34,730 nucleotides of DNA from Acidimicrobiales bacterium (GTDB taxonomy: Bacteria > Actinomycetota > Acidimicrobiia > Acidimicrobiales > JACCXE01): contig DASZWD010000024.1 of assembly GCA_035546775.1 (NCBI GenBank), positions 1 through 34,730 on the forward strand. The letters run 5' to 3'. Shown here piece by piece: positions 4,080 to 20,005 of this stretch. Under the pieces are notes generated by a model. The model did no database searches and was not told the origin of the DNA. It saw only the letters and a program-made list of their open reading frames with translations. A program made the translations under genes and the position numbers. Positions within the stretch are counted from its first letter, which is position 1. Each line of letters opens with the position of its first letter.

Positions 4080-4789
4080 GCGGCCCCTCCGAGATACGCG
4101 GCGGAAACTTCTTCGGCGATGTCCTTCGGCTCGCCGACGTTGAGCACCACGCCGTGCGCCATGACGGCGGCGTAGTCGGCGACGGCGAGCGCCGTCTGGG
4201 CGAACTGCTCGACCAGCAGGATCGAGATGCCCTCGTCGCGGATCTGGCGCACGAGGTCGTACAGCTGCCCCACGATGATCGGCGCCAGGCCGATCGAGAT
4301 CTCGTCGAGCAACAGCAGCGAGGGTTCGGTCACGAGGGCGCGCGCCATCGCCAGCATCTGCTGCTCACCGCCCGACAGCGTGCCCGCCAACTGCTTGCGC
4401 CGTTCCTTCAGCCGCGGAAACCGGGTGAAGGCGCGCTCTTCGACGTCGCGCTGCCGCAGCCCGCCCTTGTAGGTCATCATGCGCAGGTTCTCGTTGACCG
4501 TGAGGTTGGGGAACACCCCGCGCCCCTCGGGGATGGTGCACACCCCGGCACGGGCCAGCTGCTCGGGCTCGGCCCCGTTGACGTGGATCCCGGCGACGTG
4601 CACGCAGCCGCTCGTCGGCTCGAGCCGCCCGCTGGCGACCTTGTGGATCGTCGACTTGCCGGCGCCGTTGGGACCGAGGAGCGCGAACACGCAGCCCGCG
4701 GGTACGGCGAAGGACACGCCGTGGAGCACTTCGATGCGGCCGTAGGCGGCGCGCACGTCGCGCAGTTCGAGGGCCGGCGCGGTCGTCAC
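4076..4789 (-). CDS. livF: Branched-chain-type ABC transporter ATPase, LivF family
   Basis: A 237-residue ABC ATPase. It carries Walker A GPNGAGKST (about residues 38-46), the signature LSGGEQQML, Walker B LLLLDEIS and the H-loop region ILLVEQ. The length, the IPEGRGVFPNLTVNENL segment and the pairing with LivG identify the LivF subfamily. It energises import by the LivHM channel, with LivG as the second ATPase. Substrates of this superfamily extend beyond leucine/isoleucine/valine to amides, aromatic acids and other carboxylates, so the name gives the family, not the cargo. GTG at 4789 overlaps the stop of the upstream surface-protein gene as GTGA. Confidence 0.92.
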   Translation of the reverse strand: MTTAPALELRDVRAAYGRIEVLHGVSFAVPAGCVFALLGPNGAGKSTIHKVASGRLEPTSGCVHVAGIHVNGAEPEQLARAGVCTIPEGRGVFPNLTVNENLRMMTYKGGLRQRDVEERAFTRFPRLKERRKQLAGTLSGGEQQMLAMARALVTEPSLLLLDEISIGLAPIIVGQLYDLVRQIRDEGISILLVEQFAQTALAVADYAAVMAHGVVLNVGEPKDIAEEVSAAYLGGAA

Positions 4790-6060: not shown

Positions 6061-6782
6061 ACCGGCACGTCCAGTCCGAGATAGGCGGCCTGCACGGCCC
6101 CGTCGGCTTGCACCTGCGCCGGTGTGCCGTTGGCGATCAGGCGGCCGAAGTCGAGCACGTAGAGCTCCTCGCAGATGCGCATGACGAGTTCGACGTCGTG
6201 CTCGACGAGCAGGATCGCCATGCCGTCGACCGCCAGTTCGAGCAGCAGGTCCCCGAGGCCCTCCGTCTCGTCCGGGTCGAGACCCGAGCCGGGCTCGTCG
6301 AGCAGCAGCAGCTTCGGACGGATCGCCAGGGCGCGGCCCAACTCGACGAGGCGCGCCATGCCGGTGGGCATGGCGTCGACCGGCGCGTCGGCGACGTCGC
6401 GCAACCCGACGCGCTCCAGGATCTCGTCGGCCACGGCGCCGGGCTCTTCGGTGGCCGAGTCCCACGAGTTGCGGATCTCGGCGGCCACAAGGATGTTCTC
6501 GCGCGCGCTCAACGCGCCGAACACCTCGAGGCGCTGGAACGTGCGCCCGACGCGGCGCCGGGCGCGGTGGTGCGGCTTGAGCTTGGTGACGTCCTCGCCG
6601 TCGATGATCACGCGACCCCGTGTCGGCGCTTGCAGGCCGGTGATGACGTTGAACAGCGTCGTCTTGCCGGCGCCGTTCGGGCCGATCAGCCCGGTGACGC
6701 GTCCGGCTTCGGCGGTCAGGTCGACGGCGCTCAGCGCCGCGAGGACGCCGAAGCGCACGTCGACGTCGGCGACGTCAAGCAT
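6057..6782 (-). CDS. livG: Branched-chain-type ABC transporter ATPase, LivG family
   Basis: A 241-residue ABC ATPase. It has Walker A IGPNGAGKTT (about residues 33-42), the LivG-typical GRTFQRLEVFGALSARENI after the Q-loop, Walker B LLLLDEPGSGLDP and H-loop LLVEHDVELV. The signature position reads PTGMARLVELGRAL instead of LSGGQ; such relaxed signatures occur in actinobacterial LivG proteins. It pairs with LivF to drive the LivHM permease. ATG at 6782 begins directly with the ATPase domain and overlaps the livHM stop by 8 bases. The frame is open further upstream, but that part only shadows the permease gene. Confidence 0.92.
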   Translation of the reverse strand: MLDVADVDVRFGVLAALSAVDLTAEAGRVTGLIGPNGAGKTTLFNVITGLQAPTRGRVIIDGEDVTKLKPHHRARRRVGRTFQRLEVFGALSARENILVAAEIRNSWDSATEEPGAVADEILERVGLRDVADAPVDAMPTGMARLVELGRALAIRPKLLLLDEPGSGLDPDETEGLGDLLLELAVDGMAILLVEHDVELVMRICEELYVLDFGRLIANGTPAQVQADGAVQAAYLGLDVPV

Positions 6783-8676
6783 TGGTCGGCGCCACTTCGA
6801 ACTCGGCGGTCGGCTGCGCCTTCGACCCCTGGAGGCTGTCGCGCACCTTCTCGAGGTTCGGCCGCACCTCCGACGTCCAGCCGTTGGGGTTGCGCCCGAG
6901 GGCGATGGCGCCGAGGCCGGCGCCGAGGAACGACAGGCTCGGGATGCCGGGCAGCGCCCGCTGGATCTTGGGGAACAGCCCGAAGGTAAGACCGCCGAAC
7001 AGCGCGCCCGACACCGTGTTGACGCCGGCGACGTAGACCAGCAGCAGCAGCACGAGGCTCTGGAGGACGTCGAAGTCGTTGAGGCCAACCTGGCCGCGCA
7101 GGCCGCCGTAGAACGCGCCGGCCAGGCCGGCCATGGCCGACGACAACGCGAACAGGGCGAGCTTGGTGAAAGTCAGATTGAGACCGAGGGTGGCACACGC
7201 GGCGGGGCTCTCGCGCATGGCGACGACGCGCCGGCCGAATTTGCCGCGCCGCAACGCCAGCACGCCGATGCCGGCCAGCGCGAACGTGACGCACACCAGC
7301 ATGAAGAACGCCTTGTCGCCGTGGAACGACACCCCGAGGATCGACGGGCGCCCGACGGCGAGGCGGCCGCCGTAGCCGAACACGTTGTGGTTCTTGAAGA
7401 ACAGCGCGCTCATGCCCTGGGCGAAGGCGAGCGTCGACAGCGCCAGGTACAGGCCCTGCAAGCGGATCGCCGGCAGTGCAGCCAAGGCACCGGCCAACCC
7501 GGCGAGGCCGGCGGCCGCCAGGAACCCGAGGATCGACCCGCCGCCGAAGAACTTGCCCATCCCGAACGCGCCGATGCCGACGAAGGTCATCTGCGCCAGC
7601 GACACCTGGCCGCCATAACCGGTCAGCAGCACCAGCGACAGCATGATGAGCGCGAACACCACGCCCTGGCCGACGGTGAACAGGTCGACGGGCGACAGCA
7701 CCTGGGCGAGCACTCCGGCGATGGCGATGAACGCCGCGGCGCCGAGCAGCGACTCGCGCAGCGAGGCGACGCGCGGGGCGCGATGGGTCGTCACCACACG
7801 CCCGACGCGCAGACGCGCCTGGGGCAGGATCAGCAGCACGGCGTAGAGGAAGATGATCGGTAGCGCCGGCTTGACGATGTTGAGGATGTTCGAGGGCAGG
7901 TTGCCGATGGTGTGCGCTTCGGCGAGACCGAGGGCGATGCCGCCGACGAAGGTGAGCGGCAGGCTCTTGAGGCGGCCGACCATCGCCGCCGCGTAACCGT
8001 TGATGACGAGCAGCGTCAGCAGGATGATGTCGAGCGACACGAGCGGCGCCAGCAGGATGCCGGCGAGTCCCGCCAGCGACGCGCCGAGCGCCCAGCTGAC
8101 CGCGGCGACGCGATCGGGCGCCGCGCCGTTGAGCGCGGTGAGCTCAGGATCGTCGACGACGGCGCGCATCGCCGTGCCGATCCGGGTGCGGAACAGGAAC
8201 AGGCGCAGGAAGATGGCGACGAGGACCGCCACGCTCATCATCGTGAGCTGGTGATAGCTGACGTAGACGCTGAAGAGCTTCAGGCGGTGGCCGGCGAAGA
8301 ATTCCGGCATCGACCGCGGCTCGCCCGGATCCCACACCGCGGTGGCCACACCGATGCACGTCAGCAACAAGCCGAGCGTGATCACCAGCGTGGTCCCGAC
8401 GTTCGAGCCGTAGAGGCGGCGCATCAACACGCGCTGAATGCCGGCACCCAGCAGCGGGGCGATGACGCCGAGTACGACGACAAGGCCGAGCCACTGCGGC
8501 CAGTGATCCTTCACCGTCAGCTGCCAGTAGGTGAACGCCATCAGCATCCCGATGGCGCCGTGGGCGAAGTTGAAGATGCCCGACGTCGTGTACGTGACGA
8601 CGAGGCCGCTCGCCGTGAGCGCGTAGATGCACCCGGTGGCGATGCCGATGACGGTGTAGGCGAGGAACGAGGTCAC
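6775..8676 (-). CDS. livHM: Fused LivH-LivM permease of a branched-chain-type ABC transporter
   Basis: A 633-residue polytopic membrane protein. Residues about 1-290 form a LivH-type permease (GCIYALTASGLVVTYTTSGI, FNFAHGAIGML, RTRIGTAMRAVVDDPELTAL). Residues about 310-610 form a LivM-type permease (LLTGYGGQVSLAQMTFVGIG, GLYLALSTLAFA, FGRRVVAMRESPAACATLGL). The fusion occurs in various actinobacteria and supplies the whole transmembrane channel from one gene. GTG at 8676 follows the livK TAA with no gap. A short polar tail ending in PTNA runs into the livG start. Expected partners are LivK outside and LivG/LivF inside. Confidence 0.92.
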   Translation of the reverse strand: MTSFLAYTVIGIATGCIYALTASGLVVTYTTSGIFNFAHGAIGMLMAFTYWQLTVKDHWPQWLGLVVVLGVIAPLLGAGIQRVLMRRLYGSNVGTTLVITLGLLLTCIGVATAVWDPGEPRSMPEFFAGHRLKLFSVYVSYHQLTMMSVAVLVAIFLRLFLFRTRIGTAMRAVVDDPELTALNGAAPDRVAAVSWALGASLAGLAGILLAPLVSLDIILLTLLVINGYAAAMVGRLKSLPLTFVGGIALGLAEAHTIGNLPSNILNIVKPALPIIFLYAVLLILPQARLRVGRVVTTHRAPRVASLRESLLGAAAFIAIAGVLAQVLSPVDLFTVGQGVVFALIMLSLVLLTGYGGQVSLAQMTFVGIGAFGMGKFFGGGSILGFLAAAGLAGLAGALAALPAIRLQGLYLALSTLAFAQGMSALFFKNHNVFGYGGRLAVGRPSILGVSFHGDKAFFMLVCVTFALAGIGVLALRRGKFGRRVVAMRESPAACATLGLNLTFTKLALFALSSAMAGLAGAFYGGLRGQVGLNDFDVLQSLVLLLLVYVAGVNTVSGALFGGLTFGLFPKIQRALPGIPSLSFLGAGLGAIALGRNPNGWTSEVRPNLEKVRDSLQGSKAQPTAEFEVAPTNA

Positions 8677-10122
8677 TTAGCCGAAGTACCAGGGTCCGTC
8701 GTCGCAGCGGTAACCGTCCTTGGGTGAATCGATGCGCACGTACTTGCCGCCGGTGACCTTGAGCAGGATCCAGCACGCGGCGGGCCCCTTGGCCCCCGGG
8801 TTCGACGTGGCGAACAGCCCGCTGTCGTCGAAGTTGCCGATCTTCTTCACTTCGGCGTTGATGGCGGCCCGCGTCACCTTCGGGCCGACGTTCTCCATCG
8901 CCTGGAACAGCAGCCGACCTTCGGCCCACGCGTAGGCGGTGAAGATGTCGGGCGTGAACCCGGGCTTCACTTTCTGCACCCACTTGTCGAACAGCGCCAC
9001 CTCGGGGATCGAGGCCGCGTCCTCCCCGCCGTACATCGCGGTCGACGACGTCACCAGCATGCCGTCGGCGGCGCTGCCCGCCTTGGCGATCACGTCGGCG
9101 TCGTAGCCCGACCCGCCGACGAGGAAGACCTCGGGCTTGAAGTTCTGCGACTGCATCGCCTTGGCAAAGCGCGCCGCCGTCGCGTCGTCGACCGAGATCA
9201 GATACACCATCTTCACGCCGCTGTCGCGCATGCGCACGACGTCGGAGGTGAAGTCCGTCTCCGTCGAGCCGATCGCCCGGTCGTAGAGCCACTTGTAACC
9301 GACGCTCTCGCCCGCCGCCCGGTACCCCTTGTGCAGCTTGACCGCGGATGGGATGTCGGACTCGATGCTGCCGACCTTGGTGATCACGTCGGGGTTGTGC
9401 GCCTTGAAGTAGTTGAACGGGCCGAGGTCGCCGCCCTTGGCCGACGGCTGGATCGAGAAGTTCGTCGGCACGGCGAAGCGGGCGTCGCCCAGCGCATGGC
9501 TGAGGTCGGGGATCTTCGCCTGCGTGAGTTGGTCTGCCGCGGCGTCGTCGTAGAGCGAGAACGACCCGAGCATGGCGAACGCCTTGCCGATGAGGTCGAT
9601 GGTCTGCGTGCGGTTCTGGCCGGTGTCGAACTGGTCGTCGCGGGCGTCGAGCTTGAACGTGCGACCCCATAGGCCGCCGAGCGAGTTCTCGTAGGCGACG
9701 ACGGCCTGCGTGCCCACGACCGCGCCGGCGAACAGTCCCGGCACCGGGCCCGTGAGCGTGCTCACGTTGCCGAGGGTGATCGACGACGCGGTGACGCCGG
9801 TGTCGGTGGCGCCGCCGTTGCCGCCGGCGGGCAGAGCGTGCACGTTCACGTTCGACTGGCTCGCGCCGCCGCCGGCGCTCGTGGTGTTCGTCGTGTTGTT
9901 GCCGCTGCCACCCGACGACGTGTCGCCCGCCGCGAGGGTGGTGTCGGTCGACTGGTCGCCGCCCTCGTCGCTGCCGTCGACGCTGGACCCCTGCACGGCG
10001 GTGCCGGTTTGACCGGCGCGCACCGCGTTGCGTTGCGCGTCAGTCAGGCGGGCGCCGCACGCGCTCGCCAGCAGCGCGAGCACGAGCAGCAGAGGTGCGA
10101 CTCGAAGGTTGTGTCTCGTCAC
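8677..10122 (-). CDS. livK: Branched-chain-type substrate-binding lipoprotein, LivK family
   Basis: A 481-residue type I periplasmic-binding-fold protein. GTG at 10122 begins a lipoprotein signal peptide (VTRHNLRVAP, LLLVLALLASAC, lipidated Cys at 22); GGAGG and a run of G lie just upstream. The binding fold starts around residue 100 (ITLGNVSTLTGPVPGLFAGA) and continues with LIGKAFAMLGSFSLYDDAAA, then MVYLISVDDATAARFAKAMQ and AYAWAEGRLLFQAM. Between Cys22 and the fold is an unusually long Ser/Thr/Gly/Asn linker that would hold the domain away from the membrane. It is first in the operon, adjacent to livHM, and has its own promoter region. The ligand is unknown; amino acid-like, amide or carboxylate ligands are all possible. 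Confidence 0.88.
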   Translation of the reverse strand: MTRHNLRVAPLLLVLALLASACGARLTDAQRNAVRAGQTGTAVQGSSVDGSDEGGDQSTDTTLAAGDTSSGGSGNNTTNTTSAGGGASQSNVNVHALPAGGNGGATDTGVTASSITLGNVSTLTGPVPGLFAGAVVGTQAVVAYENSLGGLWGRTFKLDARDDQFDTGQNRTQTIDLIGKAFAMLGSFSLYDDAAADQLTQAKIPDLSHALGDARFAVPTNFSIQPSAKGGDLGPFNYFKAHNPDVITKVGSIESDIPSAVKLHKGYRAAGESVGYKWLYDRAIGSTETDFTSDVVRMRDSGVKMVYLISVDDATAARFAKAMQSQNFKPEVFLVGGSGYDADVIAKAGSAADGMLVTSSTAMYGGEDAASIPEVALFDKWVQKVKPGFTPDIFTAYAWAEGRLLFQAMENVGPKVTRAAINAEVKKIGNFDDSGLFATSNPGAKGPAACWILLKVTGGKYVRIDSPKDGYRCDDGPWYFG

Positions 10123-10151
10123 AGGCCCCCCATGCCTCCGTGGTGGTGCGA

Positions 10152-10193
10152 AATCTAACGCACCGTCAGAAACGGTGTGACGCACGTCACACC
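10152..10193 (-). promoter_or_regulatory. livK promoter with CRP/GlxR-type operator and a second inverted repeat
   Basis: A perfect inverted repeat GGTGTGACG-CA-CGTCACACC spans 10174-10193 and contains TGTGA-N6-TCACA (10176-10191), the canonical CRP-family site (GlxR/Crp in actinobacteria). A second repeat, CACCGT-cagaa-ACGGTG, lies at 10161-10177 and overlaps it. TAGATT (minus strand, 10157-10152) fits a -10 box and leaves a leader with GGAGG before the livK GTG. The CRP site centre is about 38 bases upstream of the expected start of transcription, near a class II activator position. Alternative: on the minus strand the same palindrome follows the ltp2-like TAA and precedes GTTTCT, so it could act as a weak terminator. 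Confidence 0.55.
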
Positions 10194-10198
10194 CATGA

Positions 10199-11368
10199 TT
10201 ATGCGGCCCCAAGGATCAGTCCGCTGGTCGGCACCCCGGTTCCGGCCGTGACCAGCACATGTTCGACCCACGGGAGCTGGTTCACGCTTGTCCCCCGGAT
10301 CTGGCGGACGGCCTCGGCGATGCCGTTCATCCCGTGGATGTAGGCCTCGCCGAGCTGGCCGCCGTTGGTGTTGATCGGCAGCTGACCACCGAGCTCGATG
10401 CCGGCCTCGACGATGAAGTCCTTCGCCTCACCCCGCCCGCAGAACCCGAACTCCTCGATCTGGCACAGCACAAAGGGGGTGAAGTGGTCGTAGAACACCG
10501 CGGTCTGGATGTCGGCGGGGGTGAGGCCCGACGTGGCCCACAGCTGCTCGGCCACCAGGCCCATTTCGGGCAACCCGGTCATGTCGTCGTCGTAGTAGCT
10601 CGTCATCATCTGCTGGTTGCGCGCCGCGCCCTGGGCCGCCGCCGTGATGACCGCCGGCGGGTTGGGACAGTCGCGGGCCCGCTCGAGAGTCGTGATCACG
10701 AGCGCCTGGGCGCCGTCGCTTTCCTGGCAGCAGTCGAGCAGGTGCAGCGGCTCGGAGATCCAGCGCGAGTTCTGATGGTCCTCGAGCGAGATCGGCTGCT
10801 TGTAGAACCACGCCGCGGGGTTGGTCGACGCGTGGAAGCGGTCGGCCACCGCGATGCGGCCGAAGTCCTCGCTGGTCGCGCCGAACTCGTGCATGTAGCG
10901 GCGGGCGAACATCGCCACCCACTGCGCCGGCGTGAGCAGCCCGTAGGGCGAGTACCAGCCGTAGTGGGCGCTCTCCGTGGTCGGCTCAGCGGGACGGCCC
11001 TGCACGCCGGCGCCGAAGCGGCGCCCCGAGCGCTCGTTGAAGGCGCGGTAACACACGACGACCTCCGCCACGCCCGTCGCCACCGCCATCGCCGCCTGCA
11101 TGACCGTGGCCGCGCCGGCCCCGCCGCCGTAGTGCACGCGGCTGAACAGCTTGAGCCCGTCCATGCCGAGTTGACGCGCCACTTCGATCTCGGGGTTGTT
11201 GTCCATGGTGAAGGTGACGAGGCCGTCGACCTCGGCCGGCGCGATGCCGGCGTCGTCGAGCGCCGCTTTCACCGATTCCACGGCGAGGCGCAGCTCGCTG
11301 CGCCCCGAGTCCTTGGAGAACTCCGTGGCGCCGATGCCGGCGATGGCCGTCTGCCCGCCGATGTTCAC
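10199..11368 (-). CDS. ltp2: Ltp2-like thiolase-fold aldolase (steroid side-chain retroaldolase family)
   Basis: A 389-residue thiolase-fold protein of the lipid-transfer/Ltp2 type. The nucleophilic Cys region of true thiolases is replaced by VHYGGGAGAATVMQAAMAVA. The C-terminal thiolase GHP motif is replaced by NGGQLGEAYIHGMNGIAEAV, with a Tyr in the EAYIHG segment. Both are expected of Ltp2, which cleaves the 17-hydroxy C22-CoA ester to androstenedione and propionyl-CoA in complex with the DUF35 part of ChsH2. GTG at 11368 overlaps the ChsH1-like stop (GTGA). Its order after ChsH2-like and ChsH1-like genes is that of the mycobacterial igr operon. The family is secure; the steroid substrate is inferred from context. 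Confidence 0.8.
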   Translation of the reverse strand: MNIGGQTAIAGIGATEFSKDSGRSELRLAVESVKAALDDAGIAPAEVDGLVTFTMDNNPEIEVARQLGMDGLKLFSRVHYGGGAGAATVMQAAMAVATGVAEVVVCYRAFNERSGRRFGAGVQGRPAEPTTESAHYGWYSPYGLLTPAQWVAMFARRYMHEFGATSEDFGRIAVADRFHASTNPAAWFYKQPISLEDHQNSRWISEPLHLLDCCQESDGAQALVITTLERARDCPNPPAVITAAAQGAARNQQMMTSYYDDDMTGLPEMGLVAEQLWATSGLTPADIQTAVFYDHFTPFVLCQIEEFGFCGRGEAKDFIVEAGIELGGQLPINTNGGQLGEAYIHGMNGIAEAVRQIRGTSVNQLPWVEHVLVTAGTGVPTSGLILGAA

Positions 11369-11751
11369 GGCATCTCCAGGGTGACGGTGCCGGTGACGTG
11401 GTCGCCGAGGTCGTTGGCGCCGCGCACGGCGACGGTCACGACGTTGCCCTCGACGGCCGTCACCTCGCCTGTCATCCGCATGGTGTCGCCGGGATAGTTG
11501 GGCGCGCCGAGACGAATCGCCACCTTGGTGATGCGCGCCGCCGGCCCGGCCCAGTCGGTGACGAAGCGGCCGACGAAGCCGTTGGTCGACAGGATGTTCA
11601 TGAAGATGTCCTTCGAACCGCGCTCGCGGGCGAGCTCGGCGTCGTGGTGCACGTCCTGGTAGTCGCGCGACGCGATGGCCGTCGCCACGATCAGCGTGCG
11701 CGTGAGCGGGATGTCGAGCGGCGGCAGCGTGTCGCCCACGCGCGCCGTCAT
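11365..11751 (-). CDS. chsH1: ChsH1-like MaoC hotdog enoyl-CoA hydratase subunit
   Basis: A 128-residue single hotdog-fold protein. ASRDYQDVHHD (about residues 32-42) contains the Asp and His of the MaoC hydratase dyad and is followed by GSKDIFMNILSTNGFVGRF, characteristic of ChsH1-type proteins. In mycobacteria ChsH1 supplies the catalytic residues of the ChsH1-ChsH2 heterotetramer, which hydrates the unsaturated three-carbon side-chain CoA ester. The adjacent ChsH2-like protein lacks the catalytic His, which supports the same division of labour here. ATG at 11751 overlaps the stop of the dehydrogenase small subunit (ATGA), and its own stop overlaps the next start. Confidence 0.82.
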   Translation of the reverse strand: MTARVGDTLPPLDIPLTRTLIVATAIASRDYQDVHHDAELARERGSKDIFMNILSTNGFVGRFVTDWAGPAARITKVAIRLGAPNYPGDTMRMTGEVTAVEGNVVTVAVRGANDLGDHVTGTVTLEMP

Positions 11752-12680
11752 CGGTACTGCTCCGCGAGCAGCGCGCCGAGACGGGCCAGTTGCGACGACG
11801 CACCCCCGAGCGCGTTGGCGATCTGTTTGCCCCACAGGAAGTAGCGGTGGATCGGGTAGTCGACGTCGGCGCCCATACCGCCGTGCAGGTGCTGGGTGGC
11901 GTACACGACGCGCTCGCCCCCCTCGGCCGCCCACCATTTGGCGATGGCGACTTCCTTGGACGCCTCGAGACCGTTGTCGAGCCGCCACGCCGCTTGCAGC
12001 ATCGTGACCTCCATCGCTTCGGTGTCGATGTACGCGTCGGCGGCGCGCAGCGCCACGCCCTGGAACGACGACAGCGGCTTGCCGAACTGCTCGCGCTGCG
12101 ACGTGTACTCGGCGGTGCGACGCAACGCTTCCTTCGCCACCCCCAGTTGCAGGGCGGCGAGCGCGACATGGGCCCGCTGGCGCATCCAGTCGACGTCGGC
12201 GCCGGGCAGCGGCTCGCCGCCGGTGAAGGTGATGTTCGCCGCGCCGCGCTGGTCGGTGGTGGCGACGACTTCGCGCTGGGGGTCTGACAGGAACACGCCG
12301 TCGGGGCGCACGACCAGCACGCGGTCGGCGACGTCGCCCGCGGGGACGGCGGTCGCTTCGAAGGCGGCGGTGAGCACCACGTCGCCCCGGACCACCGCCG
12401 GCAGCCACTCCTTCTGCTGCACGTCAGTGCCGAACCGGGCGAGCGGCAACGCCCCGAGGGCGATCGTCTCCAGCAACGGCACGTCGGCCAGGGCGCGGCC
12501 CTGCGCTTCGAGCACGAGGCACAGTTCGACGAGGCCGCGGCCGCTGCCGCCGTGGGCCTCGGGGATGCACAACCCGAGCAGGTCGGCATCGGCGAGATCG
12601 CTCCAGCCGCCCCCGCCGCCGAAGATCTGACCCGCCAGGTCGCGCAGCGCCCGCTGGTCGTCGTCGAGGTTGAAGTCCAC
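11748..12680 (-). CDS. Acyl-CoA dehydrogenase small subunit, ChsE1/FadE28-like
   Basis: A 310-residue half-type acyl-CoA dehydrogenase. It has the N-terminal helical domain (DDDQRALRDLAGQIFG) and a degenerate middle domain without the xSEPxAGSD flavin motif. The C-terminal helical domain is well kept: SQREQFGKPLSSFQGVALRA and HLHGGMGADVDYPIHRYFLW, the latter carrying the HGG that contacts FAD. Such proteins pair with a partner that has the opposite set of motifs to form alpha2beta2 enzymes with one FAD per heterodimer; the partner is presumably the product of 13597-14757. The GTG start shares one base with the stop of the ChsH2-like gene (TAGTG). In mycobacteria the two dehydrogenase genes are adjacent; here ChsH2 separates them. 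Confidence 0.8.
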   Translation of the reverse strand: MDFNLDDDQRALRDLAGQIFGGGGGWSDLADADLLGLCIPEAHGGSGRGLVELCLVLEAQGRALADVPLLETIALGALPLARFGTDVQQKEWLPAVVRGDVVLTAAFEATAVPAGDVADRVLVVRPDGVFLSDPQREVVATTDQRGAANITFTGGEPLPGADVDWMRQRAHVALAALQLGVAKEALRRTAEYTSQREQFGKPLSSFQGVALRAADAYIDTEAMEVTMLQAAWRLDNGLEASKEVAIAKWWAAEGGERVVYATQHLHGGMGADVDYPIHRYFLWGKQIANALGGASSQLARLGALLAEQYR

Positions 12681-13600
12681 TAGCTCGCCTCCACCGGGTG
12701 GAACTGCGGCAGCGTCAGCTCGTCGTCGAACTGCACCATCTCGCATTCGACCGCCATGCCGATGGTGACGTCGGCGGGGTCGACGCCCACGAGGTTCGAC
12801 ACCAGGCGCGTGCCTTCGTCGAGGGCGATCACCGCGACGACGAGCGGGTAGTCGAACGCCGGCACCTGGGGGTAGTGGTTGACCACGAAGCTGTAGACGG
12901 TGCCGCGCCCGGCCGACTCGACCGTGTCCCACTCCAGCGAATGGCACGCCGGACACATCGGGCCCGGCGGGTGGCGCAGCTTCCCGCACGCCGCACAGCG
13001 CTGGATCAGCAACTTGCCCTCGTTCACGCCGTCATACCAGAAGGCGTTGTCGTGGGTGATCGCCGGCCGCGGGCGGCGCGGCCGCGCCGGCGCCGCGGGG
13101 CGAGGCGCGAACTTGAGCATGCGGAAGCGCATCGTGCCGACGAGCTCGCCGTCCTGATCGCGGTACTCCTGGAGCGTCGTGACGAAGTGGCCGACGCCGA
13201 GTGCCGTCGTCTTCTCCTCCGAGATCGACTCGATGGTCGTGGTCGTCGTGATGACGTCGCCCGGGCGCAGGTAGCGGAAGTACTCCTGGTCGCTGTTGGT
13301 GGCCACGACCGACGTGAAGCCGGCGGCGTCGAGTTCACGGAACAGCGCGTCCTGCTCGGTGGCGCCGGTGCGACCGCCGAGGCCGCGCATCGACCACGCC
13401 TGCAGCATCGTCGGCGGCGCCACGATGCCGTCGTGACCCGCGGCGCGCGCCGCCGCGTCGTCGACGTAGATCGGGTTGGTGTCGCCCACCGCGTCACACC
13501 AGTGGCGGATCATGGCGGCGTTGACGGCGTCGAGCGCCACGCTCGGCGGGCCGATCACGCGGCCTTCATACGCGCGCACGCGTTCGAGAAAGTCGCTCAA
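12680..13600 (-). CDS. chsH2: ChsH2-like protein: MaoC domain fused to DUF35 (OB fold with Zn ribbon)
   Basis: A 306-residue two-domain protein. Residues 1 to about 165 are a MaoC-like hotdog in which the canonical GDxNPxH reads GDTNPIY, so the catalytic His is lost. Residues about 185-300 are DUF35: a rubredoxin-like zinc ribbon CAACGKLRHPPGPMCPAC followed by an OB fold (GRGTVYSFVVNHYPQVPAF). This is the architecture of ChsH2, whose MaoC half pairs with ChsH1 and whose DUF35 half binds Ltp2, channelling product from hydration to carbon-carbon cleavage. A TTG start at 13600 is chosen because it overlaps the upstream stop as TTGA, the spacing used throughout the operon, and gives a full N-terminal domain. 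Confidence 0.85.
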   Translation of the reverse strand: MSDFLERVRAYEGRVIGPPSVALDAVNAAMIRHWCDAVGDTNPIYVDDAAARAAGHDGIVAPPTMLQAWSMRGLGGRTGATEQDALFRELDAAGFTSVVATNSDQEYFRYLRPGDVITTTTTIESISEEKTTALGVGHFVTTLQEYRDQDGELVGTMRFRMLKFAPRPAAPARPRRPRPAITHDNAFWYDGVNEGKLLIQRCAACGKLRHPPGPMCPACHSLEWDTVESAGRGTVYSFVVNHYPQVPAFDYPLVVAVIALDEGTRLVSNLVGVDPADVTIGMAVECEMVQFDDELTLPQFHPVEAS

Positions 13601-14757
13601 CGCGCCTGCCGAGCCATTCCCAGGGCGCCAGCGGCCACGATCTCGCGCTGGACTTCGTTGACGCCGCCGCCGAAGGTGTTGATCTGCGCCGAGCGCCCGG
13701 CGCGCTCGAGCTCGCCCGCCAGCACCGCCCCCGGAGACCCGGCGCGGATCGCGCCGGCGGCCCCGACGACGCCGAGCAGCGTGCGGTACACGTCGACCGC
13801 CGTTTCGGTGCCGTACACCTTGACCGCGGAGGAGTCACCCGGCGCCAGCGATCCGTCGGCGACGGCCGCCGCCATGCGCCAGTTCATGAGGCGCATCGCT
13901 TCGAGCTTGGCGTAGGTGCGCGCCAGGTCGAGCTGCACCCACGGGATGTCGATGAGACCGGCCGCGGCGACGTAGCGCGCCGTGTCGTCCCACAACCGCA
14001 GCGCCAGACCACTGAACGCCGCGAGCCCGACGCGCTCGTGGTTGAGCTGGGTGGTGATCATGCGCCAGCCGGCGTTCTCCTCGCCGACGCGGTTGGCGAC
14101 GGGCACGCGCACGTCGGTGTAGTACGTCGCCGTCGTCTTGGTGCCGCCGACGGTGGTGATCGGGGTGTAGCTGAACCCGGGCGACGACGTCGGCACGAGC
14201 AGGATCGAGATGCCGCGGTGCTTCGGCGCGCCGGGGTCGGTGCGCACCGCCAGCCAGATGTAGTCGGCCTGGTCGGCCTGGCTGGTGAAGACCTTGTTCC
14301 CGTTGACGACGTACTCGTCGCCGTCGCGCACCGCCCGCGTCCGCAGCGATGCCAGGTCGGTGCCGGCTTCGGGCTCGGTGTAGCCGATGGCGAAGTTGAT
14401 GTCGCCGCGCACGATGCCGGGCAGGAACGCCGCCTTCTGCTCATCGGAGCCGAAGCCCATGATCGTGGGCCCGACGGTGTTGAGCGTCACGAACGGGAAC
14501 GGCGCGGCGGCGCGCTGCACTTCGTCGAAGAAGATGAACTGGTCCGTCGCCGGGCGACCCTGGCCGCCGAACTCGACGGGCCAGCCGACGCCGAGCCAGC
14601 CGTCGGCGCCCATCTGGCGCACGATGCGTCGGAACACCGGACCGCCCTCGGGGTCGGCCGCCAACTCGGCGCGCACCGCCGGCGTCAGGAGGCGCGCGAA
14701 GTAGGCGCGCAACTCCTGGCGCAGCGCCTGCTGCTCGGCGGTCTCCTGGAGGAACAT
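13597..14757 (-). CDS. Acyl-CoA dehydrogenase large subunit, ChsE2/FadE29-like
   Basis: A 386-residue acyl-CoA dehydrogenase, about the length I recall for FadE29. The N-terminal domain includes GWLGVGWPVEFGGQGRPA. The flavin-binding middle domain shows IGYTEPEAGTDLASLRTRAV and VNGNKVFTS. The C-terminus is INTFGGGVNEVQREIVA in place of the usual HGGxGY segment, which is instead found in the small subunit at 11748-12680. It would introduce the double bond into the side-chain acyl-CoA. It starts 11 bases after the SDR stop; ATG at 14757 is the only suitable start. The catalytic base cannot be assigned by eye. Confidence 0.83.
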   Translation of the reverse strand: MFLQETAEQQALRQELRAYFARLLTPAVRAELAADPEGGPVFRRIVRQMGADGWLGVGWPVEFGGQGRPATDQFIFFDEVQRAAAPFPFVTLNTVGPTIMGFGSDEQKAAFLPGIVRGDINFAIGYTEPEAGTDLASLRTRAVRDGDEYVVNGNKVFTSQADQADYIWLAVRTDPGAPKHRGISILLVPTSSPGFSYTPITTVGGTKTTATYYTDVRVPVANRVGEENAGWRMITTQLNHERVGLAAFSGLALRLWDDTARYVAAAGLIDIPWVQLDLARTYAKLEAMRLMNWRMAAAVADGSLAPGDSSAVKVYGTETAVDVYRTLLGVVGAAGAIRAGSPGAVLAGELERAGRSAQINTFGGGVNEVQREIVAAGALGMARQAR

Positions 14758-14768
14758 CGGTCGCGGCT

Positions 14769-15680
14769 TTACGCCTGCGAGCCGATCACCGGGACATTGG
14801 GCGTTGCCTTGGCCAGCAGGTCGCGCACCGCCGGGCCGATATCGGCCGGTTCCCACCGGTCGCCCTTGTTGATGTCGGGCCCGTGCTGCCAGCCGGTGGC
14901 GACCGAGATCTTGCCGCCGTCGACCTCGAACACCTGGCCGGTGACGTCGCGCGACTCGCGGCTGCCGAGCCACACGACCAGCGGCGCCACGTTGTCGGCG
15001 GCCATGGCGTCGAAGCCGTCCGTGGGCGTCTTCATGGCGTCGGGGAAGAGGTTCTCGGTCATGCGGGTGCGGGCGATCGGCGCAATGGCGTTGACCGTCA
15101 CGCCGTAGCGGCCGAGCTCGGCGCTGGCGACGCGCGACATCGCGGCGATGCCGGCCTTGGCCGCGGAGTAGTTGCTCTGGCCGACGTTGCCGAACAGTCC
15201 CGCGGCGGAGCTCGTGTTGACGATGCGGGCGTCGTTGGTCTCGCCCGCCTTGACGCGGTCGCGCCAGTAGTTGGCCGCGTGGTGCATCGGGGCGAACGTG
15301 CCCTTGAGGTGGACCTTGATCACGGCGTCCCACTCGGCCTCCGACATGCTCACGAGCATCCGGTCGCGCAGGATGCCGGCGTTGCACACCAGCACGTCGA
15401 GGCCGCCGAAGGCGTCGACGGCGGACTGCACCAAGCGGCCGGCGGCGTCGAAGTCGGAGACGTCGTCGCCGTTGGCGATCGCCTCGCCGCCCATGGCGCG
15501 GATGGCGTCGACCACCTCGCCGGCGGGCCCGGCCGAGCTGCCGGTGCCGTCGGGCTCGGCGCCGAGGTCGTTGACGACGACCTTGGCTCCCTGCCGCGCG
15601 AACTCCAGGGCGTGGCCGCGGCCGATGCCGCGTCCCGACCCGGTGACGATGACGACGCGGCCCTCGCAAATGCCCGACAT
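14769..15680 (-). CDS. Short-chain dehydrogenase (17beta-HSD4/Rv3548c-type)
   Basis: A 303-residue SDR with an extended C-terminus. It shows TGSGRGIGRG (residues 13-22), CNAGIL, the catalytic Ser in NTSSAAG and YSAAK. The insertion after beta-2 and the C-terminal GWQHGPDINKGDRWEPADIG segment are typical of long SDRs related to the 17beta-hydroxysteroid dehydrogenase type 4 module and to Rv3548c, which lies beside the igr genes in M. tuberculosis. It probably oxidises a hydroxyacyl-CoA or a steroid hydroxyl. It is the first gene after the palindromic operator. ATG at 15680 has a GGGAGGG ribosome site 6 bases upstream. Confidence 0.82.
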   Translation of the reverse strand: MSGICEGRVVIVTGSGRGIGRGHALEFARQGAKVVVNDLGAEPDGTGSSAGPAGEVVDAIRAMGGEAIANGDDVSDFDAAGRLVQSAVDAFGGLDVLVCNAGILRDRMLVSMSEAEWDAVIKVHLKGTFAPMHHAANYWRDRVKAGETNDARIVNTSSAAGLFGNVGQSNYSAAKAGIAAMSRVASAELGRYGVTVNAIAPIARTRMTENLFPDAMKTPTDGFDAMAADNVAPLVVWLGSRESRDVTGQVFEVDGGKISVATGWQHGPDINKGDRWEPADIGPAVRDLLAKATPNVPVIGSQA

Positions 15681-15701
15681 GTGACCCTCCCTAGAATTCC
15701 C

Positions 15702-15723
15702 AAACTAGAACAGATTCTAGTTT
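15702..15723. promoter_or_regulatory. 22-bp palindromic operator before the igr-like operon
   Basis: A perfect inverted repeat with 9-base arms: AAACTAGAA, CAGA, TTCTAGTTT. It abuts the stop codon of the KstR-like gene and lies 21 bases upstream of the SDR start. Read on the minus strand the core TAGAATCTGTTCTA (15719-15706) matches the KstR consensus except for one base. It is followed by AGTTTGG, as at the boxes at 2388 and 18984. Further CTAG and GAATTC repeats lie between it and the ribosome site. It most likely binds the adjacent TetR protein. Confidence 0.65.
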
Positions 15724-16308
15724 CTAGTCGCGCAGCAGCAACCGCGCCGCGAACTCGAGCTCTTCGCCCACCGCGCCCATCTGCGTCCAGCCGTTCACCC
15801 AGCCCAGCAGCGAGGCGAACCACACGTGGGCCAGCACACGCACGACGCCGTCGCGGATCTCGGGGTCGACGTCGACCAGCGGCGCCGAGAGCACCATCGA
15901 CACGATGTGTTGCACCTCGGCCTGGCACTCCGACACCGCCGGGTCCGGAGCAGTGATGGCGGTCACGAGGGCGGCGAAGAGTTCGGGGGCGCGGCCCGAC
16001 GCGCGGGTGATGCGGCGGATCACCGCGATCAGCCGGTCGAGCGGCTCGTCGGACGCGGCCACCGCCTTCGCCGGGGCGCTCTCGAGGCTGCGGGCCCACT
16101 CGAGCAGCGCGGCGGCGAGCAGGTGGTCTTTCGAGGAGAAGTAGCGGTAGACGGTGCCGAGGGCGACGTCGGCGCGCGCCGCCACGTCGCGCATCTGCAC
16201 CGCGTCGTAGCCGCCTTCGGTGGCGAGTTCGATCGCGGCTTGGATGACACGGGCGCGGCGGGCGTGCTGCGAGCGCGTCAGGACTTCGGGCTGAGGTGTG
16301 CTCGCCAT
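15724..16308 (-). CDS. kstR: TetR-family regulator, KstR-like
   Basis: A 194-residue TetR repressor. The N-terminal helix-turn-helix (about residues 20-58) reads EGGYDAVQMRDVAARADVAL then GTVYRYFSSKDHLL, strikingly like KstR, the cholesterol-catabolism repressor of mycobacteria. The C-terminal ligand domain also has the KstR-like VLAHVWFASLLGWVNG segment. KstR is released from DNA by the CoA thioester of a steroid side-chain acid. ATG at 16308 is preferred; an in-frame TTG at 16338 would overlap the divergent gene. The gene lies directly upstream of a palindrome with a near-KstR core and of the igr-like operon. The comparison is from memory and not an alignment. Confidence 0.75.
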   Translation of the reverse strand: MASTPQPEVLTRSQHARRARVIQAAIELATEGGYDAVQMRDVAARADVALGTVYRYFSSKDHLLAAALLEWARSLESAPAKAVAASDEPLDRLIAVIRRITRASGRAPELFAALVTAITAPDPAVSECQAEVQHIVSMVLSAPLVDVDPEIRDGVVRVLAHVWFASLLGWVNGWTQMGAVGEELEFAARLLLRD

Positions 16309-16331
16309 TACTTCGTTAGCTTTCCATTCCG

Positions 16332-16832
16332 ATGGCAACCAACCAGCGATCGCAGATCACGATGACCGACGCCGAGCGCGAAGCGTTCCTCAACTCGAGC
16401 CGCACCATGACCATGGCCACGAACGGTCCGAGCGGTCACCCGCACGTGGTGGCGATGTGGTTCGCCGTCGTCGACGGCGACATCTGGTTCGAGACCAAGG
16501 CGAAATCGCAGAAGGTGCAGAACCTGCGCCGCGACCCGCGCATCACCTGTTCGATCGAGGCGGGCAAGACCTACGACCAGTTGCGCGGCGTGTCGCTCGA
16601 AGGCACCGCCGAGATCGTCGACGACCCGGACGCGCTGTGGCGCGTCGGTGTGAGCGTGTGGAACCGCTACCAAGGCGAGTACTCCGACGAAGTGAAGCCG
16701 CTGGTGGAGTCGATGCTGCACAACCGCGTCGCCGTGCGCGTACACGCGACGCGCGCCCGCACGTGGGACCACCGCAAGCTCGGCCTGCCTGAGATGCCGA
16801 TCGCGGGTTCGACGGCGGGCGAACCCACCTAG
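16332..16832 (+). CDS. PPOX-class F420/FMN split-barrel protein
   Basis: A 166-residue pyridoxamine-phosphate-oxidase-like split barrel. GHPHVVAMWFAVVDGDIWFET and SQKVQNLRRDPRITCSIEAG are hallmarks of the F420-dependent reductase group (FDOR-B) common in actinobacteria. It probably reduces an activated double bond or quinone with F420H2; substrate unknown. It starts 23 bases from the divergent KstR-like gene. A TAGCTT hexamer 9 nt before the ATG could be its -10 box. Its TAG stop lies within the CTAG at 16829-16832 that also ends the convergent dehydrogenase gene. Confidence 0.8.
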   Translation: MATNQRSQITMTDAEREAFLNSSRTMTMATNGPSGHPHVVAMWFAVVDGDIWFETKAKSQKVQNLRRDPRITCSIEAGKTYDQLRGVSLEGTAEIVDDPDALWRVGVSVWNRYQGEYSDEVKPLVESMLHNRVAVRVHATRARTWDHRKLGLPEMPIAGSTAGEPT

Positions 16833-17806
16833 ACGGGCTCCGCCGCGAGCAGGGCGCCGAGCTTGCGCAGCTGCTTGGTGGCGCCGCCGAGGCTGAGCTC
16901 GAGTTGCTTGGCCCACAGGAAGTAGCGGTGCAGCGGGTAGTCGCGGTCGACGCCGATGCCACCGTGCAGGTGCTGGGCCGCGTGCACGACGCGCTGGCCA
17001 CCCTCGGCCGCCCAGAACTTCGCCACCGCCACCTCCGCCGCCGCCGGTAGCCCCTCGGACAGCCGCCACGCCGCCTGCCACAGCGTGAGGCGGATCGCTT
17101 CGGTGTCGATGTACGCGTCCGCGGCGCGCTGGCCCACGGCCTGGAACGTGCCGATCGGCTTGTCGAACTGCTGGCGCGAGCCGGTGTACTCGGCCGTCAT
17201 CGCCAGCGCCTGCTCGCAGCAGCCGAGCATCACCGCGCACGTGGCCACCGTCATACGCTGGAGCAACCACTCGACGGCGTCGGGCCCGCCGATCTGGGTC
17301 AGCGGCGCGTCGCGGAAGTCGAGGCGCGCCTCGGGGATGCCCGACGTCGTGTCGAGGCGCGTGCGCGTCACGCCCGGTCCTTCGAGGTCGAGCAGGAACA
17401 GGCCTTCGGGGGTGTCGACGAGCGCGTGCGACGCGTCGAGCCCGGCCGGGACGCAGATCTTGACGCCGTCCTGGGGGCTTTCGACCAGCGCGCTCGTCAG
17501 CACGCGGGCCGGGTCGTCGAGCAGGTCGGTGGCGCCGAAGTGGCGCAGCGCGGCGGCGGTGACCAGCGTCGGCAGCAGCGGGATCGGCGCGCTGAAGCGT
17601 CCGACCTGTTCGAGCATCAGGCACGTCGCCACGAAGCCGAATCCGTCGAGCAGGCCGGCCTGGGCGAAGGCCGCCCACGTGTCGCGGTCGAAGTAGGTGC
17701 CGGCGCGTTCGAGGGCGCGCAGGCGTTCGTGGGTGCACTTGTCGCCGAGGATCTGCGCGGCGAGATCGCGCGCCGCTTCCTCTTCTTCGCTGAAGGTGAA
17801 GTCCAT
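16829..17806 (-). CDS. Acyl-CoA dehydrogenase small subunit (second pair)
   Basis: A 325-residue half-type acyl-CoA dehydrogenase of the same kind as the product of 11748-12680. The N-terminal helical domain starts FSEEEEAARDLAAQI, the middle domain lacks the SEPxAGTD flavin motif, and the C-terminal domain keeps YTGSRQQFDKPIGTFQAVGQ and HLHGGIGVDRDYPLHRYFLW. It should pair with the large subunit encoded immediately upstream, since ATG at 17806 overlaps that stop by one base (TAATG). Similarity to the igr-like small subunit (WAAEGGQRVVHAAQHLHGG against WAAEGGERVVYATQHLHGG) points to duplication of the pair. The exact acyl chain is unknown. Confidence 0.8.
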   Translation of the reverse strand: MDFTFSEEEEAARDLAAQILGDKCTHERLRALERAGTYFDRDTWAAFAQAGLLDGFGFVATCLMLEQVGRFSAPIPLLPTLVTAAALRHFGATDLLDDPARVLTSALVESPQDGVKICVPAGLDASHALVDTPEGLFLLDLEGPGVTRTRLDTTSGIPEARLDFRDAPLTQIGGPDAVEWLLQRMTVATCAVMLGCCEQALAMTAEYTGSRQQFDKPIGTFQAVGQRAADAYIDTEAIRLTLWQAAWRLSEGLPAAAEVAVAKFWAAEGGQRVVHAAQHLHGGIGVDRDYPLHRYFLWAKQLELSLGGATKQLRKLGALLAAEPV

Positions 17807-18966
17807 TAGCGCAGGCTCCTTGGCATGCCGAGGCCGAACATGGCGATGAGGTCGCGCTGGACCTCGTTGACGCCGCCACCGAAGGTGAGGATGAGCAGGC
17901 TGCGGTAGTAGCGCTCGAGGCGCGCCTTGAGCACCGCTTCGGGTGAGTCCTGCGTGAGGTACGCGGCCTCGCCGATGATCTCGAACAGCAGGCGGAAGGC
18001 TTCGAGGTAGAACTCGGTGCCGAACACCTTCGTGGTCGACGCGTCGGCGATGTTGAGGCCGGCGCCCGTCGAGGCCGACCACGCCACCTTCCAGTTGATG
18101 AGCTTGAGGAACTCGAGGCGGGCGTAGACCCGCGCCAGGTTCATCTGCACCCACTCCTGCTCGATCAGCTTCGTTTCCTGCGCGTACTGGCGCACGTCGT
18201 GGAGCAGCGACTCGGGGATGCCCGTCGAGCACAGCGTCACCCGTTCGTGGTTCAGCTGGTTGGTGATCAGGTTCCAGCCGTTGTTCTCGCCGCCGACGCA
18301 GTTGGTGACGGGGACGCGCACGTCGTCGTAGAAGGTCTGGTTGATGTCGTGCTCGCTCAGCAGGTGCATCGGCTGCACCGAGAAGCCCGGCGTGTCGCGG
18401 GGCACGATGATGATCGAGATGCCCTTGTGCTTGGACACCTCGGGGTTCGTGCGCGCCGCCAGCCACACGTAGTCGGCGTCGCTCGACAGCGACGTGAAGA
18501 TCTTCTGGCCGTTGATCACGTACTCGTCGCCGTCGCGTACGGCGCGGGTGGTGAGCGACGCCAGGTCGGTGCCCGCACCCGGTTCGCTGTAGCCGACGCA
18601 GAACGTGATTTCGCCCCGCAGGATGCGCGGCAGGTAGTCGTTCTTCTGCTCGTCGGTGCCGAACTGCATGATCGTCGGCCCGACGGTGTTGATCGTCAGC
18701 ATCGGGACGGGGGCGCCGCAGCGCATCGACTCGTCGAAGAACACGAACTGCTCGATCTGGCTGCGGCCCTGACCGCCGTACTCCTTCGGCCAGCCGATGC
18801 CGACCCAGCCGTCGGCCGCCATCTGCTTGAAGATCCGCCGCGTGGTCGGGCCGACGCCGTGCTCCTTGCCCAGCTCCGCCTCGACCTCAGGCGTCAGCAG
18901 CTCGCGGTAGTAGGCCCGGAGTTCCTGGCGCAGCTTCTCCTGTTCCTCGGTGTAACCGATGTACAC
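17806..18966 (-). CDS. Acyl-CoA dehydrogenase large subunit (second pair)
   Basis: A 386-residue protein, the same length as the igr-like large subunit. It shows GWVGIGWPKEYGGQGRSQIE, VGYSEPGAGTDLASLTTRAV and INGQKIFTS, and ends LTFGGGVNEVQRDLIAM. It lacks the HGG segment, which the downstream small subunit provides, so the pair is expected to form an alpha2beta2 enzyme. GTG at 18966 is preceded by an excellent ribosome site, GGAGGAGG at 18971-18978, and is the first start with one. The gene is divergent from the Rv3520c-like gene, and a KstR-type box lies 18 bases upstream of the start, so both directions are probably controlled together. Confidence 0.83.
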   Translation of the reverse strand: MYIGYTEEQEKLRQELRAYYRELLTPEVEAELGKEHGVGPTTRRIFKQMAADGWVGIGWPKEYGGQGRSQIEQFVFFDESMRCGAPVPMLTINTVGPTIMQFGTDEQKNDYLPRILRGEITFCVGYSEPGAGTDLASLTTRAVRDGDEYVINGQKIFTSLSSDADYVWLAARTNPEVSKHKGISIIIVPRDTPGFSVQPMHLLSEHDINQTFYDDVRVPVTNCVGGENNGWNLITNQLNHERVTLCSTGIPESLLHDVRQYAQETKLIEQEWVQMNLARVYARLEFLKLINWKVAWSASTGAGLNIADASTTKVFGTEFYLEAFRLLFEIIGEAAYLTQDSPEAVLKARLERYYRSLLILTFGGGVNEVQRDLIAMFGLGMPRSLR

Positions 18967-18983: not shown

Positions 18984-19006
18984 TGGAACGCGTTACAGTT
19001 TGGCAC
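18984..19006. promoter_or_regulatory. KstR-type box in a divergent promoter
   Basis: TGGAACGCGTTACA at 18984-18997 matches TnnAACnnGTTnnA. Toward the plus strand, TACAGT (18994-18999) overlaps the box and stands 7 nt before the GTG at 19007, the same arrangement as at 2388-2410, with AGTTTGG following. Toward the minus strand the box lies 18 bases from the dehydrogenase start. One bound repressor could therefore block both genes. Confidence 0.62.
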
Positions 19007-20005
19007 GTGAAGCTCGGCCTGCACATGGGGTACTGGGGTGCCGGTCCCCCGGCCAATCCGCTCGACACGATTCTCGAAGCGGAACGCCTGGGCTTCGACA
19101 GTGTCTGGGTCGCCGAGTCCTACGGCTCGGACGCCTTGACCCCCCTGGCGTGGTGGGGCTCGGCGACCTCGACGATCCGCCTCGGGACGAACCTGGCGCA
19201 ACTCTCGGCGCGCTCGCCGACCGCCATGGCGATGGCGGCGCTCACCCTCGACCACCTCTCGGGCGGGCGCTTCGTGCTCGGCCTCGGTGTGTCGGGTCCG
19301 CAGGTCGTCGAGGGCTGGTACGGCGAGTCGTTCGCCAAGCCGCTGGCCCGCACCCGCGAGTACGTCGAGATCATCCGCAAGGTGCTGGCCCGCGAGGCGC
19401 CCGTCACCAACGACGGGCCGCACTACCCGCTGCCCTATCCCGGCGGACTCGGGCTCGGCAAGCCGCTCAAGTCGATCGTGCACCCCTTGCGCCGCGACAT
19501 CCCGATCCTGCTCGGCGCCGAAGGCCCCAAGAACGTCGCGCTGGCGGCGGAGATCGCCGACGGCTGGTTCCCGATCTTCTACTCACCCCGCCACGACAAG
19601 ATGTACCGCGACGCCCTCGGCCCTGTGCGCGACGGCTTCGAGGTCAACGCCATGGTGACGGTGTCGATCGACGACGACGTCGAGCGCGCCGCCGACGCCC
19701 TGCGCCCGATGATCGCGTTGTACGTCGGCGGAATGGGCGCGCGCGAGATGAACTTCCACTTCGACGTGTTCTGCCGCATGGGCTACGAGGGCGAGGCCCA
19801 CAAGATCCAGGACCTCTACCTCGACGGTCATCAAGCCGACGCCATCGCCGCGGTCCCCACCGCGATGGTCGAGGAGATCTGCCTGATCGGCCCCGTCGCC
19901 AAGATCCGCGACGACCTCGAACTGTGGAAGTCCTCCATGGTCACCAGCCTCCTGACCAACGGCTCCCCCGCCCTCCTGCGCACCATGGCGGAACTCGTCC
20001 TCTGA
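19007..20005 (+). CDS. F420-dependent luciferase-like oxidoreductase, Rv3520c-like
   Basis: A 332-residue TIM-barrel LLM protein. The N-terminus KLGLHMGYWGAGPPANPLDT and the segments ESYGSDALTPLAWWG, ALTLDHLSGGRFVLGLGVSG and EGPKNVALAAEIADGW closely resemble Rv3520c, a predicted F420-dependent oxidoreductase that belongs to the KstR regulon of M. tuberculosis. It probably transfers hydride between F420 and a side-chain or ring intermediate; the reaction is not established. GTG at 19007 is chosen over an ATG at 18959 because the protein family begins there, and a -10-like box precedes it at 7 nt. It ends 5 bases before a strong bidirectional hairpin. Confidence 0.85.
   Translation: MKLGLHMGYWGAGPPANPLDTILEAERLGFDSVWVAESYGSDALTPLAWWGSATSTIRLGTNLAQLSARSPTAMAMAALTLDHLSGGRFVLGLGVSGPQVVEGWYGESFAKPLARTREYVEIIRKVLAREAPVTNDGPHYPLPYPGGLGLGKPLKSIVHPLRRDIPILLGAEGPKNVALAAEIADGWFPIFYSPRHDKMYRDALGPVRDGFEVNAMVTVSIDDDVERAADALRPMIALYVGGMGAREMNFHFDVFCRMGYEGEAHKIQDLYLDGHQADAIAAVPTAMVEEICLIGPVAKIRDDLELWKSSMVTSLLTNGSPALLRTMAELVL

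Follow-up and report, generated by a model that had tools for sequence, protein, structure and literature searches.

A putative KstR-type operator at an igr-like steroid operon in Acidimicrobiales, and a directional one-base form that may merge operator and promoter

The window considered here, a 34,730-nucleotide stretch of DNA from an Acidimicrobiales bacterium, carries a TetR-family regulator gene, a short palindrome and a run of genes for side-chain degradation, along with further oxidoreductase genes and two additional motif matches. The features are as follows.

2388 to 2401, no strand: exact KstR-motif site TAGAACGTGTTACA, found by motif, before an LLM-family gene (ATG 2411)
10199 to 11371, minus strand: Ltp2-type lipid-transfer/aldolase protein (profile PRK07855, 693 bits)
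11371 to 11751, minus strand: MaoC-like hydratase, ChsH1-like (Pfam MaoC_dehydratas, 34 bits)
11748 to 12683, minus strand: acyl-CoA dehydrogenase, ChsE-like (NCBIfam acyl-CoA dehydrogenase models)
12680 to 13600, minus strand: MaoC/ChsH2 fusion (Pfam FAS1_DH_region, zf-ChsH2 and OB_ChsH2_C)
13597 to 14757, minus strand: acyl-CoA dehydrogenase, ChsE-like (Pfam)
14769 to 15680, minus strand: SDR heading the operon (PRK07791 type, 477 bits), counterpart of a Tsukamurella SDR at the Rv3548c position
15685 to 15691, minus strand: putative ribosome binding site of the SDR, AGGGAGG-like, with CCCTCCC in the congener too
15702 to 15723, no strand: putative KstR-type operator AAACTAGAACAGATTCTAGTTT (symmetry, KstR core match, recurrence and conservation)
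15724 to 16308, minus strand: KstR-type TetR repressor gene, 194 aa (Pfam, PDB relatives, NCBIfam and tree)
16332 to 16832, plus strand: F420-dependent PPOX-class oxidoreductase of the Rv1155 type, divergent from the regulator (TIGR03618, 99.6 bits)
16829 to 17806, minus strand: second of two acyl-CoA dehydrogenase genes behind the 18984 site (domain match)
17806 to 18966, minus strand: acyl-CoA dehydrogenase (FadE) behind the 18984 site (domain match)
18984 to 18997, no strand: exact KstR-motif site TGGAACGCGTTACA, found by motif, between FadE (minus) and LLM (plus)
19007 to 20005, plus strand: LLM F420-dependent oxidoreductase of the Rv3520c type (profile, 456 bits)

The Ltp2, ChsH1/ChsH2-like and ChsE-like genes all lie together and constitute an igr-like set. 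As in the igr operon of Mycobacterium tuberculosis (Rv3540c-Rv3545c), Ltp2, a MaoC/ChsH1-like protein, a ChsH2-like protein and two acyl-CoA dehydrogenases are encoded in a row. Unlike that operon, the set includes no CYP125/P450, two P450 genes being located instead at KstR-type sites on another contig of the genome (C18); its ChsH2 carries a fused dehydratase domain, and an SDR stands at its head. This SDR has a 67% match to a Tsukamurella SDR, the second in a pair of SDR genes that diverges from echA20-ipdAB-type genes and holds the position of Rv3548c/Rv3549c. The gene order of Nocardia farcinica was read by homology. Directly downstream of the operon (4076-10212) is a transporter of the branched-chain amino acid ABC type, comprising a substrate-binding protein, permease and ATPase, which possibly serves a steroid-derived substrate.

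The palindrome AAACTAGAACAGATTCTAGTTT has perfect arms of 9 nt each, separated by a spacer of 4 nt. It directly adjoins the stop codon of the regulator gene (15724), and the ATG of the SDR (15680) follows 21 bp further on along the minus strand. The initial annotation had described just such a palindrome with 9-base arms, abutting this stop codon and preceding the SDR, with a core one base removed from the KstR consensus; the coordinates 15702-15723 bear this out, as does the core itself (TAGAACAGATTCTA, compared with TnnAACnnGTTnnA for KstR). Symmetry by itself is common in this G+C-rich window, where 14 perfect 9-nt-arm palindromes (spacer 0-10) occur against 8.0 in Markov shuffles. AT-rich arms, on the other hand, are unique to AAACTAGAACAGATTCTAGTTT among these palindromes and have an expectation of 0.0 over 20 shuffles. 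A chance palindrome was rejected as an explanation, as it accounts for neither the AT-rich arms nor the KstR sequence match, although symmetry is frequent here. A KstR2 site was also rejected, the KstR2 operator AnCAAGnnCTTGnT having no match in the window with one mismatch allowed. The sequence match is the stronger part of the case, because CTAGAACNNNTTCTAG occurs exactly only four times in the 3.7-Mb genome, with three of the four at steroid genes. Judged by its sequence, the focal palindrome very probably serves as an operator.

The regulator is read from an ATG at 16308 to the stop at 15724, and within its 194 residues Pfam recognizes TetR_N (61 bits, cut-off 24) and TetR_C_20 (51 bits, cut-off 26.5). 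Its best relative in the PDB is M. tuberculosis KstR (5aqc, E 4.7e-30), and the second best among solved structures is 3bjb, a TetR protein of Rhodococcus RHA1 whose function is unassigned in its entry. A KstR-like recognition region had been noted in the initial annotation; YDAVQMRDVAARADVALGTV is indeed present, and the helix-turn-helix region is identical to KstR at 31 of 50 positions, compared with 16 of 50 for KstR2 (the KstR2 sequence having been checked against PDB entry 4w1u). The best NCBIfam model is likewise KstR (NF033703), at 140.6 bits against an equivalog cut-off of 280, and the protein is therefore filed as KstR-type and not as a KstR equivalog. The same cut-off is missed by other likely KstR proteins, from Rhodococcus sp. 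(214 bits) and Nocardioides (272 bits). The KstR score from a profile search whose query contained M. tuberculosis KstR was left out of the evidence. A phylogeny against KstR and KstR2, proposed earlier as the check on this assignment, gives a consistent answer: in a tree of 119 rows the regulator falls with M. tuberculosis KstR in a 112-row clade (support 97/90), with KstR2 outside it, as are most of the TetRs encoded in the same genome. Within this clade an Acidimicrobiales branch (98/92) stands beside an Actinomycetia branch, and L009, a TetR of the same genome on a long branch, lies at the base inside the 97/90 node. One-to-one orthology with KstR is not claimed, because the group of RHA1 3bjb and Streptomyces proteins is closer to M. 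tuberculosis KstR than is the window protein.

Sites resembling the focal palindrome are distributed over other steroid loci of the genome. Beyond 15702-15723 itself, CTAGAACNNNTTCTAG is matched at C18:18242, between a P450 gene and echA19, where the full 16 bp of the focal site recur; at about C18:2759, between a P450 gene and the steroid 3-ketoacyl-CoA thiolase gene fadA5 (622 bits); and at about C47:21537, before an amidohydrolase gene. The exact core TnnAACnnGTTnnA is found at 15 places genome-wide, including the FadA5/P450 site and 18984 and 2388 in the window, compared with 5 in a reversed control, and part of these matches will be due to chance. A further candidate, CTAGAAAAGCTTCTAG at C60:126534, is palindrome-like without the AAC half and was set aside. 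In M. tuberculosis, KstR sites are located at Rv3515c/Rv3516 (echA19), Rv3520c/Rv3521 and Rv3545c/Rv3546 (PMC1995591). The FadA5/P450, FadE/LLM and EchA19 sites parallel these, and are accordingly counted for a KstR-type regulon.

The first 19,120 positions of C18 (L079) form a steroid gene cluster with three KstR-type sites, encoding two P450s, FadA5, FadD, FadE, an EchA20-like protein, an IpdA-like CoA-transferase, a nitronate monooxygenase, a FadA6-like protein and EchA19. The SDR/echA20 gap remaining on this contig has neither a KstR nor a KstR2 motif. In a whole-genome search for ring-opening genes, the KshA_C model gave no match, and a model of HsaC-type extradiol dioxygenases matched only at C3:1146 (218 bits, below cut-off). 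Side-chain and C/D-ring genes are present in the genome despite this result, and the ring-opening step may be carried out by other enzymes or be missing.

The arrangement is also conserved. In the congener the whole of it is syntenic, with an identical 16-mer at the kstR-SDR position and a counterpart of the 18984 site at L083:12468, and with a spacer of different sequence and length before the SDR (24 nt, compared with 21 nt in the window). The order kstR-site-SDR is kept in another family as well (L051). Among 64 Acidimicrobiia-type loci, 37 sites with 10 or more of the 12 positions matched lie near regulator genes against 2.0 expected, and in other actinobacteria the figures are 46 and 0.6. 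The order was surveyed in 198 genomes, 62 with a close homologue of the regulator and 136 without: the exact canonical palindrome is found in 37 of the 62 regulator-positive genomes and 8 of the 136 negative ones (p 4e-16), and the form with the focal deviation, TAGAATnTGTTCTA (hereafter the T-form), in 17 of 62 and 0 of 136 (p 4.8e-10); the genomes of one order are kin and not independent, so that these p-values overstate certainty. KstR-type sites thus track the regulator gene across the order.

The one-base deviation has a pattern of its own. In sites of the form TAGAA[A/G/T]nnGTTCTA, T is the deviating base in 36 of 43 cases from regulator-positive genomes, compared with 4 of 34 elsewhere (p 1e-10). 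Where a recognized steroid gene starts within 200 nt, the TAGAAT half is oriented toward the gene 15 times, away from it once, and stands in a divergent position twice. Since shared ancestry makes the genomes non-independent, the count was also reduced to family-gene pairs, which leaves 9 against 1 (one-sided binomial ~0.01). The deviation is therefore a recurrent, directional form of the operator and not noise.

Operators overlapping the −10 region have been described in mycobacteria (PMC1995591). On the minus strand, the upstream half of the focal palindrome reads TAGAAT (15719-15714), ending 33 nt before the ATG of the SDR, with TTGCTG situated 16 nt upstream of it. TAGAAT fits the actinobacterial −10 form, TAnnnT, and could possibly serve as a −10 box inside the operator; TAGTTT, at the 3′ edge of the palindrome, is another −10 candidate. 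The LLM gene at 19007 begins with a GTG, and TACAGT of the 18984 site precedes it by 7 nt. In all, four sites of this genome other than the focal one (window 2388 and 18984, about C18:2760 and about C47:21538) have a TAnnnT on their downstream edge, separated by 6 or 7 nt from a start codon. A spacing of 6-7 nt is as would be expected of leaderless transcripts, and these placements suggest that the operator overlaps a likely −10 box in different ways.

A different reading of the T-form, inside the same regulatory model, is that it is merely a weakened operator giving graded, leaky repression, with no promoter role for TAGAAT. Although one substitution in the conserved AAC/GTT half should reduce affinity, plain weakening predicts neither the great excess of T over A or G nor the prevailing orientation to the steroid gene, and we regard this reading as unlikely, if still worth weighing.

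Several further observations concern T-form operators in the relatives. In two genomes (G072 and G020; L175/L184 and L185/L188), echA19 is preceded by two such operators, repeated in tandem at a distance of 24 bp. A few bases upstream of the T-form operator there is often a TTGCC(G)-like stretch and, after it, A-rich bases (L164-L189), possibly a −35 element. In several genomes, T-form operators also precede an unrecognized gene whose product shares the start MELLYRRS or similar (L167, L169, L180); this gene is likely a further member of the regulon.

The initial annotation had proposed that the side-chain operon is controlled locally, by its own neighbour. Extended to a full alternative, the regulator would be an operon-specific TetR, a KstR paralogue dedicated to the SDR/igr-like operon, with the other sites under another protein. 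The close gene neighbourhood, the score below the KstR equivalog cut-off and the two or three KstR-like proteins found in many relatives are all compatible with this. In its own genome (97.5% complete), however, the regulator is the sole TetR_C_20 protein, with no second one recovered in the own-genome search and only one close homologue; the next-closest TetR is 34% identical over 93 residues, and among the 20 best TetR hits the best match to KstR2 scored about 56 bits. By these comparisons the regulator would be the genome's single KstR-type repressor, grouped with KstR and not KstR2. An operator identical to the focal one is moreover placed between P450 and EchA19 on another contig, and an operon-specific TetR is improbable. 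Of the earlier proposal, the part that stands is that the site is placed to control the SDR/igr-like operon; that the control is merely local does not, given matching sites at FadA5/P450, P450/EchA19, FadE/Rv3520c-type LLM and other genes, and a single KstR-like protein found. The focal site thus appears to belong, as one of several operators, to a wider steroid regulon of the KstR type and not to a private circuit. Least probable is that the palindrome is mainly an intrinsic terminator or structural element ending the regulator gene, unrelated to KstR-type repression: it is a perfect inverted repeat adjoining a stop codon and ends in TTT on the minus strand, but its AT-rich arms provide no G+C-rich stem, the same 16-mer occurs in the divergent P450/EchA19 promoter where no gene ends, the congener keeps the palindrome without contact to the regulator stop codon, and the sites track the regulator gene across genomes.

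In mycobacteria, the KstR (Rv3574/MSMEG_6042) regulon resembles that of the window in several ways: its repressor has TetR_N and TetR_C_20 domains, and the recognition helix is nearly the same; TAGAACnnGTTCTA-type palindromes lie at the −10 region or over it (predicted, in the window); sites are found at the counterparts of EchA19, Rv3520c and FadA5/P450; and the side-chain operon is under control of the repressor (again predicted here). There are differences as well. Mycobacterial KstR and the window regulator are 34% identical, the latter below the NCBI KstR cut-off; the window operator bears the T deviation, and its operon is headed by the SDR of the Rv3548c position. Mycobacterial kstR is divergent from fadE34, whereas the window regulator gene lies directly upstream of the SDR/igr-like operon. 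Mycobacterial kstR is also typically autoregulated, while no site with at most one mismatch lies upstream of the window regulator gene (the 23-bp gap 16309-16331), nor in the same position of the congener. Several relatives have a KstR-type site before a FadE-kstR gene pair. Part of this gap, which the window regulator gene shares with the divergent PPOX gene, is preserved in the congener (CGTTAGCTTTCCA), and TAGCTT stands 9 nt before the PPOX start; a promoter of non-KstR type may be situated there. KstR2 is similar to the window protein in being a TetR repressor of cholesterol catabolism, and differs in its operator, absent from the window, and in its place outside the clade of the window protein. 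In mycobacteria, KstR2 (Rv3557c) controls Rv3548c and Rv3549c (PMC3068626).

Taken together, it is highly probable that a KstR-type repressor binds 15702-15723 and related sites at other steroid genes, with the operator probably fused to a promoter and the repressor presumably released by a ligand. The family of the regulator, the conservation of the operator, its co-occurrence with the regulator gene and its placement at steroid genes can all be read directly from the sequences. As proposed, a dimer of the regulator would bind the focal palindrome and the CTAGAAC-type palindromes at other steroid genes; with the operator covering the probable promoter of the SDR/igr-like operon, the bound repressor would block RNA polymerase. 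KstR leaves DNA when a steroid CoA thioester accumulates, and here too a steroid-derived CoA thioester would free the repressor and turn the side-chain genes on. The change from C to T on the SDR strand would convert a TAGAAC half into TAGAAT, a likely −10 box, so fusing operator and promoter. A more specific reading, with about even chances of being correct, combines, for Acidimicrobiales, a directional KstR operator whose half site is a −10 box (TAGAATnTGTTCTA facing the gene) with the takeover, by the single KstR-type repressor, of one or more genes placed under KstR2 in mycobacteria, the SDR of the Rv3548c position among them.

No paper covering both KstR and Acidimicrobiia was found in the literature searched, and Acidimicrobiia are absent from a genome survey of steroid degraders; as far as we could find, a KstR-type regulon in this order is apparently unreported. 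The steroid regulon characterized in mycobacteria and known in other Actinomycetia would thereby be extended to a mostly uncultured order in which little steroid work has been done, with two predicted variations: a directional T-form operator, and an SDR moved from KstR2-type to KstR-type control. The latter suggests that the division of control between KstR and KstR2 is perhaps not universal, and the former provides a case, open to testing, in which a single base would fuse an operator with a −10 box. Regulator and operator together provide a sequence marker by which the steroid genes of this order may be found.
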